In this document: piece after piece, positions 3,064 through 33,753 of the stretch
Layout: each line of letters starts with the position of its first letter
Numbering within the stretch: the first letter of the stretch is position 1
Origin: a virus
DNA: 37,114 nucleotides
Strand: one strand, 5' to 3'
Virus record (IMG/VR): IMGVR_UViG_3300030102_006164
Span: 6,618 to 43,731 of that record
Made by a program: the position numbers and the translations under genes
The notes under the pieces: generated by a model
What the model was told of the DNA's origin: nothing
What the model saw: only the letters and a program-made list of their open reading frames with translations
The model's database searches: none

Positions 3064-3641
3064 TGTCGCTTAAGTTTGAACAGCAAAACCTAATCTTTAC
3101 AGATACAGCTATTACAGTGGAGGATAATCTTGACAATTCACACAGTAATCAGGAAGTCATGGGCTCATGGGAAGACCCACTAATGAAGCGACACGCAGAG
3201 GTGGTTTGTGAAAACGGGGGAGATATATTGGAGATTGGATTTGGCATGGGCATATCTGCCAATTACATTCAACAACAGAACCCTGATTCCCACACAATAA
3301 TTGAAAGTCACCCTCAAGTGATAGAAAAATTAAAAGTTTGGGCAGATGACAAACCAAATGTAATTGTTGTCGAGGGTCACTGGCATGATGTAACAGGTAG
3401 TTTGGGTATATACGATGGGATATTTTATGACACTTTTGGCGACAAGAAGCTCGCTGAATTTAAAGATGTCTGCAATCAATTAACAAAATCTGGAAGTATT
3501 ATAACGTTTTGGAATCATTATGGGGTAATGGAGCGCGACAACGCATATGGATTTATTGATAATGTTAGTTATGAAGAAATTAAAGTAGAAGACCCCTATT
3601 CATCCGGCGCAAAATATTATTTACCAAAGGTGGTGGTGTAG
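3063..3641 (+). CDS. Guanidinoacetate/arginine N-methyltransferase-like SAM enzyme
   Basis: A 192-residue class I SAM-dependent methyltransferase whose motifs follow guanidinoacetate N-methyltransferase (GAMT) in order: VMGSWEDPLM (32-41; GAMT has VMERWETPYM), SAM loop EIGFGMG (57-63), acidic strand end IIES (79-82), EGHWHDV (104-110), DGIFYDTF (118-125) and a C-terminal YYLPKV. Glu37 and Asp123 align with the GAMT acidic residues that hold the guanidino group, from memory of the rat enzyme. It lacks part of the long GAMT N-terminus. It starts inside the stop codon of the fibre gene and its stop overlaps the next GTG start, so it belongs to the fibre operon. The substrate is unknown; an arginine side chain of a virion protein or a host guanidino compound are possibilities. 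The family call is firm, the substrate is not. Confidence 0.78.
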   Translation: MSLKFEQQNLIFTDTAITVEDNLDNSHSNQEVMGSWEDPLMKRHAEVVCENGGDILEIGFGMGISANYIQQQNPDSHTIIESHPQVIEKLKVWADDKPNVIVVEGHWHDVTGSLGIYDGIFYDTFGDKKLAEFKDVCNQLTKSGSIITFWNHYGVMERDNAYGFIDNVSYEEIKVEDPYSSGAKYYLPKVVV

Positions 3642-7744: not shown

Positions 7745-7776
7745 AACCCCGCCTTGAAAAAGGCGGGGTTTTTTTT
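7745..7776 (+). terminator. Rho-independent terminator after the capsid gene
   Basis: A perfect 11-bp stem, AACCCCGCCTT (7745-7755) and AAGGCGGGGTT (7760-7770), closes on a GAAA tetraloop and runs into eight T residues (7769-7776). It is the strongest terminator in the window and separates the scaffold/capsid unit from the next gene. Confidence 0.93.
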
Positions 7777-8381: not shown

Positions 8382-9710
8382 ATGTCCTTTCCTCAATTGA
8401 CGCCAAGCAGCAACACTAGCGCTGTTGTTCTTCCATCTACTGGTAGCTCCGCTGATGTAAAAGCAGCACTCCCATTTGCGGTATACGATACCTCTGATTT
8501 CAAAGAGGGAGCAGCAGCACAGGTTGCCTATACTTTTAAGAAACTTGGCGGTGACGTACTAGACATTGAACTTAAGGCAGATAATGTATATGCTGCTTAC
8601 GAGGAGGCATGCCTAGAGTATTCCTACCAAATTAATATTCATCAAGCTAAGAACGTTCTATCAGATCTATTGGGGATGGCAACTGGTACATTCAATCATC
8701 TGGGTGAACACCAAACTGGTAGTAACCAAGATTCTGTTTCTGGATCTTTGGTTAACCTTAAGTACCCTAGATACAAATTTACATATGCTCAGCGTGTCGC
8801 AGACGGACTGGCTGAGGAAGCTGGCGTTGGTGGTAATCTGATAGAATATTCGGCATCTTTCAATGTTGTGGCCGGCCAGCAAGACTACGACTTGCAAACA
8901 ATTATATCTGGTAACTCGATTGATATTAACGCCGAAACAAAAAGCGCCGTCCCGTATGGCACAGGTAGTATTGAGAAATCGCCGGGAACATTAACTCCAA
9001 ATCAGCAAGATAGAATGAATCGTAAATTTAAAATTCGTAGGGTCTATTATAAAACGCCGGCGTCAGTATGGAGATTTTATGGATACTATGGAGGTCTGAA
9101 TGTTGTTGGTAATTTAAACTACTATGGTCAATTTGCGGACGATACAACTTTTGAGATTATCCCGTCTTGGCACAATAAGTTACAAGCCATGGCCTATGAA
9201 GACCACCTATACACTCGCCTATCTCACTACTCTTACGAAATTGAAAATAATAAGTTAAGACTGTATCCGATTCCACAAGCCGAAATTCCTGCAACATTCT
9301 GGGTGACATTTACTATGCATCGCGACGCATGGGAAGAAGACTCAGATAGAAAGTCTGGCGTCAGTGGTATCAATAACATGAATACCTTGCCGTTCCCGAA
9401 TGTGCCATATAAAAATATTAACTCTATCGGTAAGCAATGGATCCGACGTTATGCTCTTGCATTGACCAAAGAAATACTAGGTCAGGTTCGTGGTAAATTT
9501 GCATCCCTGCCTATCCCCGGTGAGTCTGTGACACTTAATGCTTCTGATCTGTTATCACAGGCCAGAGAGGAACAAACATCTCTTAAGGAGGAGTTGAAAA
9601 CAGTATTAGATCAAATGACCTACAGGGCTCTTGCTGAACAAGATGCAGCCATGGTCGGGGCTATTGATACTGTGTATCAAGAGATACCACTACCTATTTT
9701 CCAAGGATAA
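8382..9710 (+). CDS. Neck protein, T4 gp13-like
   Basis: A 442-residue protein. Two regions match T4 gp13: near residues 50-100, FKKLGGDVLDIELKADNVY (T4: LRRLGAPIINVELTPDQIY), and the C-terminal region KQWIRRYALALTKEILGQVR then PGESVTLNASDLLSQAREE with LKEEL (T4: NRWVKDYATALAKELNGQI and PGGVTVDGQRLIEEARLEK). gp13 joins the portal vertex to the tail. It is longer than T4 gp13 (309 residues), with a longer Tyr-rich middle. It heads the gp13-gp14-gp15 series in T4 order. An out-of-frame ATG lies four bases upstream; the SD AGGAG (8368-8372) could serve either, and the long frame is chosen. Confidence 0.82.
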   Translation: MSFPQLTPSSNTSAVVLPSTGSSADVKAALPFAVYDTSDFKEGAAAQVAYTFKKLGGDVLDIELKADNVYAAYEEACLEYSYQINIHQAKNVLSDLLGMATGTFNHLGEHQTGSNQDSVSGSLVNLKYPRYKFTYAQRVADGLAEEAGVGGNLIEYSASFNVVAGQQDYDLQTIISGNSIDINAETKSAVPYGTGSIEKSPGTLTPNQQDRMNRKFKIRRVYYKTPASVWRFYGYYGGLNVVGNLNYYGQFADDTTFEIIPSWHNKLQAMAYEDHLYTRLSHYSYEIENNKLRLYPIPQAEIPATFWVTFTMHRDAWEEDSDRKSGVSGINNMNTLPFPNVPYKNINSIGKQWIRRYALALTKEILGQVRGKFASLPIPGESVTLNASDLLSQAREEQTSLKEELKTVLDQMTYRALAEQDAAMVGAIDTVYQEIPLPIFQG

Positions 9711-16490: not shown

Positions 16491-16531
16491 ATAAAGGCTG
16501 AAGTGGAAAGACTTCAGCCTTATTTGTTTTT
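16491..16531 (+). terminator. Rho-independent terminator before the 114-residue gene
   Basis: AAGGCTGAAGT (16494-16504) and ACTTCAGCCTT (16511-16521) form a perfect 11-bp stem with a GGAAAG loop, followed by ATTTGTTTTT. It closes the tube/gp26/gp51 unit. Confidence 0.9.
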
Positions 16532-23141: not shown

Positions 23142-24437
23142 ATGACAAGCAATATAAAAGGCAAGAACACTTTAAAAGCAAGAGAATTGTTTTTAAACCG
23201 ATTCGATTATAAGGTGGCAGCGTTTGCTCCACGCCAATTACTCGGATACCCATCTGCCTTAGTTCCGGCCGGCACTGCTGACTTCTGGTGGGCTGAACGT
23301 GCATTTCTAGGTCGTGTTAGCTTTGACGATGTTCTGGAGCCGGTAGAGGCGTATGTGCCATTTATGAAATCACTTAGGACCAAAAAGACATCTACGTTGG
23401 TTTTAAATTTTGTCGCTGATGCCTTTAAAGATTTTCAAGAAGAGTATTTGTTGCAAATTAGGCTTGGCCGATTAGAAGACGACGACCCACTTTTAACTGA
23501 CATTGAGGCAGCAAGGGGATACTCATCAGTAAGAGATGCTTACCGCAGCCTGCAAAGAGATTTGTATGCGTCATTTAGCGAGTATCTAAAAACCAATAAT
23601 ATAATTGACAAAATTCTGGATATCGAAGATTTTATATCTGAAATGACCTACTACTTGCTCAATATATATGATGGCCCATTTACTCGCAGTGCTTTTGTTC
23701 TTAGTCGCCATGTTGGCCCGATGTCCAGTGGGTTGTGTATTGACACTCAGCTTCTTAGTTACAGCGAAGACGAACCAAAAATAAAATTCATTAACAGCCC
23801 AAACTTTAAAAAATTTCTAAGGATAGCTAATCAGCACGGATTCTTAATAGACAAAAATATCCCTTGGCGGTTGGTTGCTGATATTCGGTCACCAAAGATG
23901 ATTGAATATGCCAAACAATATGATAGCGAGGTCGATTCACCACAAAGTATTGTTAATAAATTTTTCGTTCAAACAGCGATCGACGAAATTGAAAATTTAA
24001 AGCTGTACTTGGTTAGTCTGTATAATCAATTTGTTTCAGACAATCCGAGAGTGCTTCAAGAGGATTATCATGCGTCGGTAACAGATAGAGTGATTTATGC
24101 TAGGTCTCCAATATCTTTGCAAAAACTGAATGAGTGCTACAGCGATTGTCGCTGGCTTGATCTTTATATTCGAGTTAGGAACAAAGAAACTGGCTTAAAT
24201 TATAGTGTTCCAGCCGAGAAGGCGATCATACGAGTGGCAAAAGATATACAAAAAACACTTGACACCCGAGAGGCAATGAGTTATATTAAAATAAAGTTTT
24301 CTGGTGTTGAGTTTTACGAGGGTTCTCTGTTCCATACGACCGAGCGCCGTCGCCAAGCTAGACATGGTAAGGATAAAATGTCGCCTGAAGAGGCAATCCG
24401 AGCCAGAGCCAGAGGCATTAGGAAAGTTTTTTACTAA
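23142..24437 (+). CDS. Unidentified protein at end of tail cluster
   Basis: A 431-residue, mostly helical and aromatic-rich protein without a signal peptide or membrane segment. I recognise no enzyme signature. Notable stretches are FMKSLRTKKTSTLVLNFVAD and NIPWRLVADIRSPKMIEYAK. The C-terminus is Arg-rich (ERRRQARHGK, RARARGIRK). GGGAG lies before the ATG. It starts 22 bases after the hub-like gene and ends 13 bases before the polymerase start, so it joins virion and replication genes in one transcription unit. It may be a baseplate or internal virion protein; this is position-based. Confidence 0.65.
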   Translation: MTSNIKGKNTLKARELFLNRFDYKVAAFAPRQLLGYPSALVPAGTADFWWAERAFLGRVSFDDVLEPVEAYVPFMKSLRTKKTSTLVLNFVADAFKDFQEEYLLQIRLGRLEDDDPLLTDIEAARGYSSVRDAYRSLQRDLYASFSEYLKTNNIIDKILDIEDFISEMTYYLLNIYDGPFTRSAFVLSRHVGPMSSGLCIDTQLLSYSEDEPKIKFINSPNFKKFLRIANQHGFLIDKNIPWRLVADIRSPKMIEYAKQYDSEVDSPQSIVNKFFVQTAIDEIENLKLYLVSLYNQFVSDNPRVLQEDYHASVTDRVIYARSPISLQKLNECYSDCRWLDLYIRVRNKETGLNYSVPAEKAIIRVAKDIQKTLDTREAMSYIKIKFSGVEFYEGSLFHTTERRRQARHGKDKMSPEEAIRARARGIRKVFY

Positions 24438-24450
24438 GTCGGAGTCTAAA

Positions 24451-25638
24451 TTGTATTTTCAAACACTCGATGATAAGGGTGAATGTGTAGGGGTGTATAG
24501 TGATGGAAAACTTTACTTCGGAGAGGTCCCAGAGGGCCTCACAAGGACGTGGAAGTACGCTGAGTATTTGGAAGAAGCTGGGGTTGAGTATGCTAATCTT
24601 TACTGCGGAGGTCGGAGTCTTGGTGACGTTTGCCCTTCTTACCTGATTGACGATTGGTTGGCTGTTGAGGCGAAGCTAAAGGCCTTTTATCGCTCATTTG
24701 TGCTATCAAAAGTTAATTTAGATGAAAATTGCTTCTTTGATCTTGTCCCAAGGCCATTTTTGATGCAATACTGCGAAATTCGTAACAAAATTACCAAGTA
24801 TGTGTTCGAAAATTACGAAAAGCCACAAAATTATGATTATATGTTGGACTTGACCAAACTTTTGTCAGGCATCCGCCGCCAAAAACTTAATATCGATGTA
24901 TCAAGCTTGTCCAAGTCAGCACATTTGCCCAAATACAGACAAGCGATCAAGAAATTTTCAAGTATTGATCCATATTGTCGTTATAACATCAATGGCACAA
25001 AGACTGGAAGACTAACAACACAGAAAGCATCGTTTCCTATCATGACTATGGACAAAGATTTTCGTAGTATAGTTCGCCCAACTAATGGGTGGTTTGTTGA
25101 GCTAGACTTCAATGCCGCAGAGCTTCGCACTCTTATGGCATTAGGAGGCTCTGAGACACCCCTACAAGACATCCACGACTGGAACATGCATAATCTGTTT
25201 CCCAAGGGTACAACACGCGACGAGGCCAAACAGAGGTTCTTTTCATGGCTTTACGACGAGAACAAGACTAATCCATACCTCTCCAAGTATTACGATAGGG
25301 ATAAAGTCAGAGAATTGTATTGGAAAAACGGCTCGGTCAAGACAATGTTTGGTAAAGAGATAGTAGCAGACCGGTCGCATGCGCTAAACTACATAATTCA
25401 AAGCACAACAGCAGAGCTTGTATTACAGCAAGTAATTAAAATTAATAAATTACTTAAAAGCATGGATACGTTTATTGCTTTCACAATTCATGACAATGTT
25501 GTGCTTGACATGCCGTTTGAAGAGCGTTATAATATACCTATGCTAGTTGAAGAGTTCTCTAACACTGGGCTGGGCAAATTTTTGGTTAACGTCAAGGCTG
25601 GAACAAACTTTGGAAACCTAAGGACACTAAAATTATGA
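24451..25638 (+). CDS. Minimal family A DNA polymerase (no exonuclease domains)
   Basis: A 395-residue polymerase core. Upstream ATG starts would lie inside the previous gene; TTG 24451 with GGAG (24441-24444) six bases before fits best. Family A motifs: NINGTKTGRLTTQKASF, motif A DFNAAELR with D219, motif B R256-x3-K260-x3-F264-x3-Y268 (E. coli R754, K758, F762, Y766), LNYIIQSTTAELV, and motif C FTIHDN with D348. The residue after motif C Asp is Asn where most family A enzymes have Glu. Only 129 residues separate the two catalytic Asp residues (177 in E. coli), so the fingers are shortened. No 3'-5' or 5'-3' exonuclease domain is present. It overlaps the next gene by ATGA. It is probably the replicative enzyme; a repair role is possible. 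Confidence 0.88.
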   Translation: MYFQTLDDKGECVGVYSDGKLYFGEVPEGLTRTWKYAEYLEEAGVEYANLYCGGRSLGDVCPSYLIDDWLAVEAKLKAFYRSFVLSKVNLDENCFFDLVPRPFLMQYCEIRNKITKYVFENYEKPQNYDYMLDLTKLLSGIRRQKLNIDVSSLSKSAHLPKYRQAIKKFSSIDPYCRYNINGTKTGRLTTQKASFPIMTMDKDFRSIVRPTNGWFVELDFNAAELRTLMALGGSETPLQDIHDWNMHNLFPKGTTRDEAKQRFFSWLYDENKTNPYLSKYYDRDKVRELYWKNGSVKTMFGKEIVADRSHALNYIIQSTTAELVLQQVIKINKLLKSMDTFIAFTIHDNVVLDMPFEERYNIPMLVEEFSNTGLGKFLVNVKAGTNFGNLRTLKL

Positions 25639-28267: not shown

Positions 28268-29389
28268 ATGGCAAGAGCAAGGAAGCAGAAAGCAGGTAAA
28301 CTTTCGATCGCAGACATGCGAAAAATTATTAATAAGAAAGCAGGCGAAGAGGTGGCTCACGATCTTGCAGGCTCAAACCCTACCGAGGTCAAAGAGTGGA
28401 TCCCTACCGGCTCACGCTGGTTGAATTCAATTATCTGTCGTGGTAAATACGCTGGTATTCCAATCGGCAAGATAAGTGAGATCGCCGGGCTTTCGGCTTC
28501 CGGCAAGTCTTACATGGCGGCTCAGATCGCTGGCAACGCCCAGAAAATGGGAATTGACGTTGTTTATTTTGATTCTGAGTCCGCTGTGGACCCTGACTTC
28601 TTAGCAAACGCTGGCTGTGACATTGAGAATTTACTTTATATTCAGGCACAATCAGTTGAGTTTGTTTTAGAGACAATTGAAGAATTATTAGCTGGTAACG
28701 AAAACAGAATGCTTTTTATCTGGGATTCGCTTGCTATGACACCTGCTATCACAGATATCGAGGGTGATTTTAATCCTCTGTCTAGTATGGCTGTCAAGCC
28801 TCGAATCTTGTCAAAAGGCTTTGCAAAGTTAACTGTGCCAATTGCTAATTCGCAATCAACCTTGCTGATTCTTAATCAGCTAAAAACGAACATTACAAGT
28901 AACATCGCGGAAGCGCGTCTGGAGCCTTATTTCACCCCCGGTGGAAAGGCCGCAATCTACGCCTATTCTCTTCGCATCTGGCTGACAGCGAGACGAGGTA
29001 AGGCTAGCTATCTATATGATGACAAAGGCTTTCGTGTTGGTACTGAGGTGAAGGCGAAGATTAAGAAGTCTCGTTTTGGGTCGGATGCGCGAGAATGCAC
29101 ATTCAAAATTATGTGGGCTGGCGACGATGTAAAAATTCAAGATGAAGAGTCATGGCTTGAGGCTGTGAAGTCATCTGACTATATCTCTAATGCTGGTGCA
29201 TGGTTCACACTAAAACATGAAGACGGCTCGGAAGAAAAATTCCAATCAGCAACTTGGATGAAAAAACTGCAAGAAGATAAATTTAGAAACCGTATTTTAC
29301 AAATTATGGAAGAAGAAGTTATTTTGAAGTTTGAGAAAAAAGAGGTTGATGCTAAGGAATTTTATGACATTGACGGCGAAGACGAATAA
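28268..29389 (+). CDS. uvsX: RecA-family recombinase, UvsX-like
   Basis: A 373-residue RecA-fold ATPase. Walker A is G74-LSAS-G79-K80-S81; a Walker B-like strand is MLFIWDSLA; further markers are VVYFDSESAVDPDFLANAG and LLILNQLKTN followed by TPGGKA. It has an N-terminal basic segment and an acidic C-terminus (YDIDGEDE), as in T4 UvsX (391 residues). UvsX works with gp32 in strand exchange and recombination-dependent replication; both are near here. It is followed after 13 bases by a composite promoter/hairpin region. Confidence 0.87.
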   Translation: MARARKQKAGKLSIADMRKIINKKAGEEVAHDLAGSNPTEVKEWIPTGSRWLNSIICRGKYAGIPIGKISEIAGLSASGKSYMAAQIAGNAQKMGIDVVYFDSESAVDPDFLANAGCDIENLLYIQAQSVEFVLETIEELLAGNENRMLFIWDSLAMTPAITDIEGDFNPLSSMAVKPRILSKGFAKLTVPIANSQSTLLILNQLKTNITSNIAEARLEPYFTPGGKAAIYAYSLRIWLTARRGKASYLYDDKGFRVGTEVKAKIKKSRFGSDARECTFKIMWAGDDVKIQDEESWLEAVKSSDYISNAGAWFTLKHEDGSEEKFQSATWMKKLQEDKFRNRILQIMEEEVILKFEKKEVDAKEFYDIDGEDE

Positions 29390-29402: not shown

Positions 29403-29431
29403 TTGACATGGCCCCCTGACTGTGTTATATT
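29403..29431 (+). promoter_or_regulatory. Sigma70-like promoter of the FEN nuclease gene
   Basis: TTGACA (29403-29408), a 17-base spacer and TATATT (29426-29431). This is a full -35 and near-full -10. Expected transcription start is around 29437-29439, inside the right arm of the overlapping hairpin. Confidence 0.82.
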
Positions 29432-29452
29432 ATAACAGTCAGGGGGTTTTTT
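29412..29452 (+). terminator. Hairpin with T run, overlapping promoter and RBS
   Basis: CCCCCTGACTGT (29412-29423) pairs perfectly with ACAGTCAGGGGG (29435-29446) around an 11-base loop that contains the -10 box. Six T residues (29447-29452) follow, then the ATG at 29453. On readthrough RNA this is a terminator and also hides the SD (AGGGGG, 29441-29446); RNA from the internal promoter would lack the left arm. Confidence 0.8.
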
Positions 29453-30421
29453 ATGACACGAATACTTGTAATTGATGCGCTTAACATGTTTATTAGGAAT
29501 TACATTGTTAATCCTATGATCTCAACAAATGGTAACCCAATCGGGGGAACAGTTGGTTTTCTTAACTCAATTAAGAAACTGATGCGAGAATCTAAACCAG
29601 ATCAGGTTATTATCTGCTGGGATGGTGCTGGCGGTTCACAGAAGCGTCGCCAGACCGTAAAAGAATATAAACAAGGTCGCAAACCTTTGCGCAAGAATTA
29701 TCAGATTGAGGGGATGGATAAGCAATCTGAAAAAGAAAATATGATTTGGCAACAACGAATCCTAATGGAGATGTTGAACGAAATGCCAATTATGCAGTTG
29801 ATGCTAGACCGAGTTGAGGCTGATGACATTATTTCTATGGTTGTGAACTCGCCCAAGTTCAAGGGATGCCAAAAGGTTATCGTATCATCTGATAAAGACT
29901 TTTTGCAATTACTGAATGACGAAACAGTTCTTTATCGCCCAATCCAAAAAAAGGCTTGGACCAAGAATACAGTAATCGAAGAGTACGGTATCTCACCAGA
30001 AAACTTTGTTATCGCTAGGGCTATTGCCGGCGATAAATCAGACAATTTGGTCGGTATCCAAGGTGCCGGCCTAGCAACAATTTCAAAGCGACTTGACTTC
30101 TTGATTGAAGACAAGATGCACACTCTTACAGAAGTCCAAGACTTTTGTACAAATATCGATAGCAAGCTTAAATTTTATGAGCGTGTCGTCGAAGGCTGGG
30201 ATACAGTGGAGACAAACTATAAAGTTATGAATCTTACCCCGCCAAGCATTTCAGTTCAGGGGCGTAAAAAAATAAATTATGCGCTTGATAACTTTGAATT
30301 TGAACTGAATGCCACAGAACTGAAGCGCTGCTCTCTCGACCATGGCTTTGGTTCTTATGATTGGTCCGAGCTTATGGCTATGTTGCGAGGATTAGTCGAA
30401 AAAAACAAGCAAGTTGCTTGA
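29453..30421 (+). CDS. 5'-3' exonuclease / flap endonuclease, T4 RNase H-like
   Basis: A 322-residue PIN-like/FEN nuclease: VIDALN with D8, WDG at the second acidic cluster, RVEADDIIS and VSSDKDFLQLL for the metal site, and the helix-hairpin region AGDKSDNLVGIQGAGLATIS. Length is like T4 RNase H (305). It removes RNA primers and flaps in lagging-strand synthesis, a job needed here because the polymerase has no 5'-3' exonuclease domain. Its SD (AGGGGG) lies inside the right arm of the upstream hairpin. The last codons overlap the -35 box of the helicase promoter. Confidence 0.87.
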   Translation: MTRILVIDALNMFIRNYIVNPMISTNGNPIGGTVGFLNSIKKLMRESKPDQVIICWDGAGGSQKRRQTVKEYKQGRKPLRKNYQIEGMDKQSEKENMIWQQRILMEMLNEMPIMQLMLDRVEADDIISMVVNSPKFKGCQKVIVSSDKDFLQLLNDETVLYRPIQKKAWTKNTVIEEYGISPENFVIARAIAGDKSDNLVGIQGAGLATISKRLDFLIEDKMHTLTEVQDFCTNIDSKLKFYERVVEGWDTVETNYKVMNLTPPSISVQGRKKINYALDNFEFELNATELKRCSLDHGFGSYDWSELMAMLRGLVEKNKQVA

Positions 30422-33702: not shown

Positions 33703-33731
33703 TTGACTTTTTTTATACAATAAGTTATATT
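33703..33731 (+). promoter_or_regulatory. Sigma70-like promoter of the co-chaperonin/ThyX unit
   Basis: TTGACT (33703-33708), 17 bases, TATATT (33726-33731), immediately after the RNR stop. Same -10 and extension (TATATTATAA) as at 29426. Confidence 0.78.
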
Positions 33732-33753
33732 ATAAAAATAAATGGAGTTTGCA

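Follow-up and report, generated by a model that had tools for sequence, protein, structure and literature searches.

A terminator-like hairpin built around a promoter -10 box between uvsX and downstream replication genes: a candidate insulator in uncultured T4-like phages

Background

The gap between the recombinase gene uvsX and the following 5'-3' exonuclease gene of the phage studied here is only 63 nt long, and it raises the question of what is achieved when a promoter, a hairpin and a ribosome-binding site share the same few bases. The gap was analyzed within a 37,114-nt stretch (hereafter the window), which comes from a 43.7-kb virus record that encodes a T4-like major head protein and a contractile tail sheath. 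The replication block in the window comprises gp32, uvsX, the 5'-3' exonuclease, a DnaB-type helicase and a class II ribonucleotide reductase. At 23142-25638 two open reading frames (431 and 444 aa) overlap, the second of which matches family A DNA polymerase; this polymerase gene may be split or frameshifted.

Layout and rarity of the element

A perfect 12-bp inverted repeat surrounds the -10 box of a TTGACA-N17-TATATT promoter between the two genes, arranged as follows.

28268..29389, plus strand: uvsX (RecA-family recombinase; Pfam RecA, 1.1e-31), the upstream gene whose transcripts would meet the hairpin
29403-29408, plus strand: -35 box TTGACA, of which TTGAC is unchanged in 38 aligned relatives
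29412-29423, plus strand: left arm CCCCCTGACTGT, lying wholly between -35 and -10, its pairing kept in relatives
29426-29431, plus strand: -10 box TATATT in the hairpin loop, with a 17-nt spacer in every junction element found
29435-29446, plus strand: right arm ACAGTCAGGGGG, the perfect complement of the left arm
29442-29446, plus strand: Shine-Dalgarno sequence (SD) GGGGG within the right arm, 6 nt upstream of the ATG
29447-29452, plus strand: TTTTTT, a terminator-like U tract and SD-to-start spacer, T-rich in nested junctions compared with controls
29453..30421, plus strand: 5'-3' exonuclease of the flap nuclease/RNase H type (322 aa; Pfam 5_3_exonuc_N, 8.4e-33), the downstream gene

An earlier, sequence-only reading had pointed out the perfect repeat, the -10 box in its loop, the SD in its right arm and the six T residues, and every one of these coordinates was confirmed. 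The loop measures 11 nt and the -10 box carries a TGn extension. Transcription is predicted to begin 7 nt past the -10 box, at about 29438-29439, and because this position falls in the right arm the short RNA would lack the left arm. With a 12-bp stem followed immediately by TTTTTT, the hairpin has the form of an intrinsic terminator.

No other perfect 12-bp inverted repeat with a loop of 3-20 nt occurs in the window, nor did any appear in 20 dinucleotide shuffles, and the RNA fold of the element has a z-score of -4.6, with none of 200 shuffles folding equally well. The window holds no second copy of the arm sequence, even when two mismatches are allowed, and its other TTGACA-N17-TATATT promoters are not nested in a comparable manner. 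Further promoter-like sites of the type TTGACA-N17-TATATT/TATAAT are found at 24259, 25505, 26260 and 30418, three in coding sequence and one directly before the helicase gene. A TTGACT-N17-TATATT promoter at 33703-33738, upstream of an open reading frame at 33742, overlaps an AT-rich dyad (TTTTTATACAATAA/TTATATTATAAAAA), which was left out as a second nest.

The same arrangement was sought across seven related contigs totalling 700 kb, counting promoters whose -10 box is enclosed by a stem scoring at least 29. Five such strong nests were found against a shuffle mean of 0.17, one each in G001, G002, G005, G007 and the window, every one at this junction; G003 and G006 gave no strong nest at that score. 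On the minus strand of G001, at 8542 and 13029, promoters with a 6-7 bp dyad around the -10 box (e.g. CCCCAT/ATGGGG) represent a weaker form of nesting.

Distribution among relatives

Searches with the exonuclease found 59 loci and searches with UvsX a further 80, while blastn against cultured phages gave no match. Close relatives have the same nest upstream of the exonuclease gene with different arms, including CCCCCTGTTC/GAACAGGGGG and CCCTCTGATC/GATCAGGGGG, and in some loci a cytidine/deoxycytidylate deaminase gene (Pfam PF00383) lies between uvsX and the exonuclease gene, in which case the nest precedes the deaminase. At 67-70% UvsX identity the nest persists with unlike arms, among them GCCCCTATTGTG/CGCAATAGGGGC, AACCCCTGCTAG/CTAGCAGGGGTT and AGCCCTCGCTTA/TAAGCGAGGGCT. 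Where genes have been inserted between uvsX and the exonuclease gene the element remains with the downstream gene, and the gaps include some of 300-550 nt.

For a survey independent of pairing, the junction before the first deaminase or exonuclease gene downstream of uvsX was taken from each distinct locus (n = 78). A TTGAC-type promoter match was present within 110 nt at 58 junctions, and 42 of the 78 were nested, adjoining the deaminase or exonuclease start with a spacer of 17 bp every time. At least four of the 16 non-nested promoter matches sit inside uvsX, where the genes overlap. The main UvsX clade, to which the window belongs, is nested in all 37 of its rows; the nest recurs outside this clade, and on the UvsX tree its presence requires at least seven changes (gains or losses).

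Several junctions depart from the common form. The interrupted stem of L138 and the region of L121, scored as promoter-less, look by eye like broken or shifted nests. In both L121 and L122 a stem (GGGACGCC/GGCGTCCC) with promoter-like sequence inside it abuts the GTG start of the deaminase, possibly a further variant. In L050 (about 1690-1730) a hairpin (GCATGCCCC/GGGGCATG) encloses the -35 rather than the -10 box. At a junction that is nested in relatives, the -10 box of L126, L136, L114, L117 and L132 ends a few nucleotides before the exonuclease or deaminase ATG, and RNA from these promoters would, by position, have little or no leader. In Microcystis phage Mel-JY01 a terminator-like hairpin lies 3' of the RecA gene, without the TTGACA nest.

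Pairing is kept while the arms turn over

Across the 38 aligned elements nothing is invariant other than TTGAC and the TA of the -10 box. The arms fall into approximately 15 sequence families, which pair within their own element and rarely between families; they were assigned by hand from the arm sequences, automatic clustering by shared 9-mers having lumped nearly all elements. RNAalifold returned no consensus structure for the 38 MAFFT-aligned elements, because stems shift register and loops differ, and subfamily alignments and left/right chimeras were therefore used instead. In the subfamily alignments compensatory changes accompanied 3 of the 15 pairs predicted for A2 and 4 of the 15 for A4. 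Stems of 15 family representatives scored 24-37 with their own arms, whereas chimeras between representatives averaged 12 and only 2.4% of them reached the weakest own score. When all elements were compared, 8.1% of cross-family chimeras scored at least 22, in our reading chiefly owing to the core CAACA/TGTTG that some families have in common. Pairing of the arms has been retained in relatives through compensatory changes, and the loss of pairing that was earlier proposed as a way of refuting this reading was not observed. The element is asymmetric throughout, the G-rich arm and the T run always lying on the transcript side.

Terminator form and masking of the Shine-Dalgarno sequence

In 26 of 38 elements the SD lies in the right arm; in the remaining subfamilies it stands outside the stem. 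Predicted folds of the read-through RNA gave SD pairing of 0.98-1.00 in all 26 members of the former group, and folds of the short promoter RNA gave 0.13-0.82 in the same 26 (1.00 versus 0.56 for the window element). The stretch after the SD has a T fraction of 0.74 in 17 nested junctions versus 0.29 for 107 other G-run SDs of the same phages (p = 5.5e-10). Elements with the SD further downstream (L071, L084, L025, L082, L085, L023, L081, L086, L080, L100, L109 and L112) keep the hairpin and the T run, and the terminator-like form is for this reason common to all members and predicted SD masking to most. It had been suggested that RNA from uvsX would either terminate or have its SD hidden, and that RNA started in the loop would escape. 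The predicted burial of the SD and a start past the left arm agree with this; hiding of the SD does not hold as the common function, because some subfamilies carry the SD outside the hairpin. As far as the sequences indicate, what the relatives have in common is a -10 box enclosed by a terminator-like hairpin.

Loops range from 3 to 22 nt in relatives and are often larger than the 4 nt that the passages on T4 terminators give as typical (PMC2988022). The ordinary intrinsic terminators of the window have loops of 4-6 nt; two are at 7745-7770, where the loop is GAAA and the T run is long, and at 16494-16521, and a near copy of the stem of the former occurs in G001 at 75883. Some members on the deaminase side have an imperfect T run, e.g. 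GGGGCATTCTTG, and termination may be weak in these because of it.

We consider that the element is probably a self-exempting insulator, that is, a terminator which spares its own promoter while shielding the genes that follow, with hiding of the SD as a second lock in most members. Polymerase arriving from uvsX would copy both arms, and the RNA hairpin with its U tract would act as an intrinsic terminator; in any RNA that reads through, the SD would be held within the paired right arm. RNA from the promoter in the loop would begin within the right arm, lack the left arm, form no hairpin and carry the SD at its extreme 5' end. With RNA from uvsX stopped or masked and own-promoter RNA spared, the downstream unit (the deaminase where present, exonuclease, helicase and reductase) would be driven by its own promoter and therefore be uncoupled from the uvsX unit. 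Points against the insulator are the often large loops, the imperfect T run of some deaminase-side members and the need for polymerase to tolerate a C-rich arm as promoter spacer.

Alternative explanations

The insulator has to be weighed against a mainly translational device like that of the T4 genes e and I-TevI, in which read-through RNA would not be terminated but have its SD hidden, the T run being a mere spacer. The T4 precedent, the nearly complete predicted SD pairing in every member with the SD in the arm, and the imperfection of certain T runs all speak for it. We nevertheless regard it as unlikely, since the T-rich spacer is confined to nested junctions and the subfamilies with a separate SD retain hairpin and T run even though the SD is outside the stem. 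The palindrome might also be an operator for a repressor or activator covering the promoter, as the sequence-only reading had allowed for a repressor. A dyad centred on the -10 box is in the usual position for an operator, and early promoters of phage RB49 share a repeated dyad, GGGAGTA/TACTCCC, around the -10 box. An operator would be expected to keep its sequence, but here the arms turn over between near relatives while pairing is kept; moreover, the site is single, with no second arm copy in the window, and asymmetric in its G-rich arm and T run, which makes an operator very improbable.

A role of the DNA itself, as a cruciform or single-strand hairpin promoter or as a replication signal, would have comparison cases in F plasmid Frpo, the N4 hairpin promoters and an origin. 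Its occurrence once per genome, inside the replication gene cluster, would suit such a role. The promoter, however, is of the ordinary sigma70 type and the same phage also carries it free of any hairpin, stems differ in length and sequence, and GC skew shows no switch at the element in contigs of 172 and 184 kb, on which ground the idea of a replication origin was rejected; we give DNA-level structure little chance. Finally, terminator and promoter might overlap by coincidence, sharing space merely owing to a small intergenic gap, as the 63 nt in the window and the separate position of other promoters and terminators in these phages might suggest. That explanation is scarcely credible, given a nest in 37 of 37 main-clade rows that recurs elsewhere with its seven or more gains or losses, nests at the junctions with gaps of 300-550 nt, own stems scoring far above chimeras, and a fixed relation between promoter and hairpin.

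Comparison with known systems

In T4 gene e (lysozyme), soc, 49, I-TevI and Aeh1 mobE, according to the passages on these genes in PMC3014915 and PMC2988022, the SD is hidden in read-through RNA and freed by an internal promoter; in e and I-TevI the promoter is placed within or next to the hairpin's 5' strand, and promoter RNA is made without that strand. The parallel with T4 drawn earlier is apt and, for e and I-TevI, documented there: long upstream RNA folds over the SD and promoter RNA escapes, as is predicted for the present element. Compression into one hairpin is not peculiar to this locus, given these T4 promoters and a Krischvirus -10 box inside a terminator. The T4 group consists of late genes with late promoters that act as a timing switch, and the passages on it speak of no terminator tail, whereas the present hairpin ends in a U tract, its promoter is of the sigma70 type (TTGACA-N17-TATATT in the window, not a late promoter TATAAATA that would give a timing switch), and some of its subfamilies leave the SD outside the hairpin.

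PeSL (promoter-early stem-loop) cassettes of T4-type phages also combine a promoter with a terminator (Arbiol 2010; Comeau 2014, as cited in PMC4503421), and the present element resembles them in placing a sigma70-like promoter and a stem-loop terminator within one small intergenic element. It differs in that PeSLs are described as dense cassettes in shuffling regions; instead of many similar copies mediating recombination, five contigs each yielded a single strong nest, interlocked and with unlike arms in different relatives. In the RB49 sequence, the terminator of several PeSLs precedes the promoter.

A scan of 84 kb of RB49 revealed a closer geometric counterpart at 3201 on the minus strand, after gene 39, where a terminator hairpin with a 13-bp stem holds in its loop the -10 box of a TTGACA-N16-TATAAT promoter; 58 phage records contain a match to the region, and the annotation of GEC-3S (Krischvirus) likewise has promoter and terminator overlapping, with the -10 box inside the terminator. 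This Krischvirus nest differs from the present element in its gene context and in an SD outside the hairpin, and the likeness is one of geometry. Ten further RB49 promoters have a 7-10 bp dyad around the -10 box, mostly without a T run; such dyads may therefore act at the level of the DNA, which is a further point against the insulator. The early-promoter dyad GGGAGTA/TACTCCC centred on the -10 box occurs on the minus strand of RB49 NC_005066 (L179, L180), for example at 39130, 38220, 36985, 131725 and 159253, and one such dyad shows a matched change to GGGGGTA/TACCCCC.

IS10, IS50 and IS200 are protected from outside transcription in a related way, read-through RNA being silenced by folding and own-promoter RNA being translated. 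These cases differ from the present one in that they concern the ends of mobile elements, with other sequences and another purpose. No description of the exact nest was found in the literature searched, the coverage of which was partial. The T4 e/I-TevI and Krischvirus precedents mean that the architecture is not new as geometry; the distinguishing features are the triple use of an arm that holds the SD, the single fixed site and the turnover of the arms.

Conclusions

On balance we lean, with some reserve, towards a recurrent design of uncultured T4-like phages, in which one hairpin would serve as terminator, SD mask and promoter carrier and exempt its own transcript; a single copy per genome would precede the deaminase/exonuclease/helicase unit, and its arms would have been replaced time and again. 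If this is true, the element would be a compact natural insulator that packs a terminator, a promoter and a ribosome site into about 50 bases, with a built-in reason why RNA from its own promoter escapes being stopped; it would also offer a design for tight gene circuits. The many arm pairs form a ready panel for studying the limits of terminator loop size, the use of a hairpin arm as promoter spacer and the uncoupling of adjacent phage operons.
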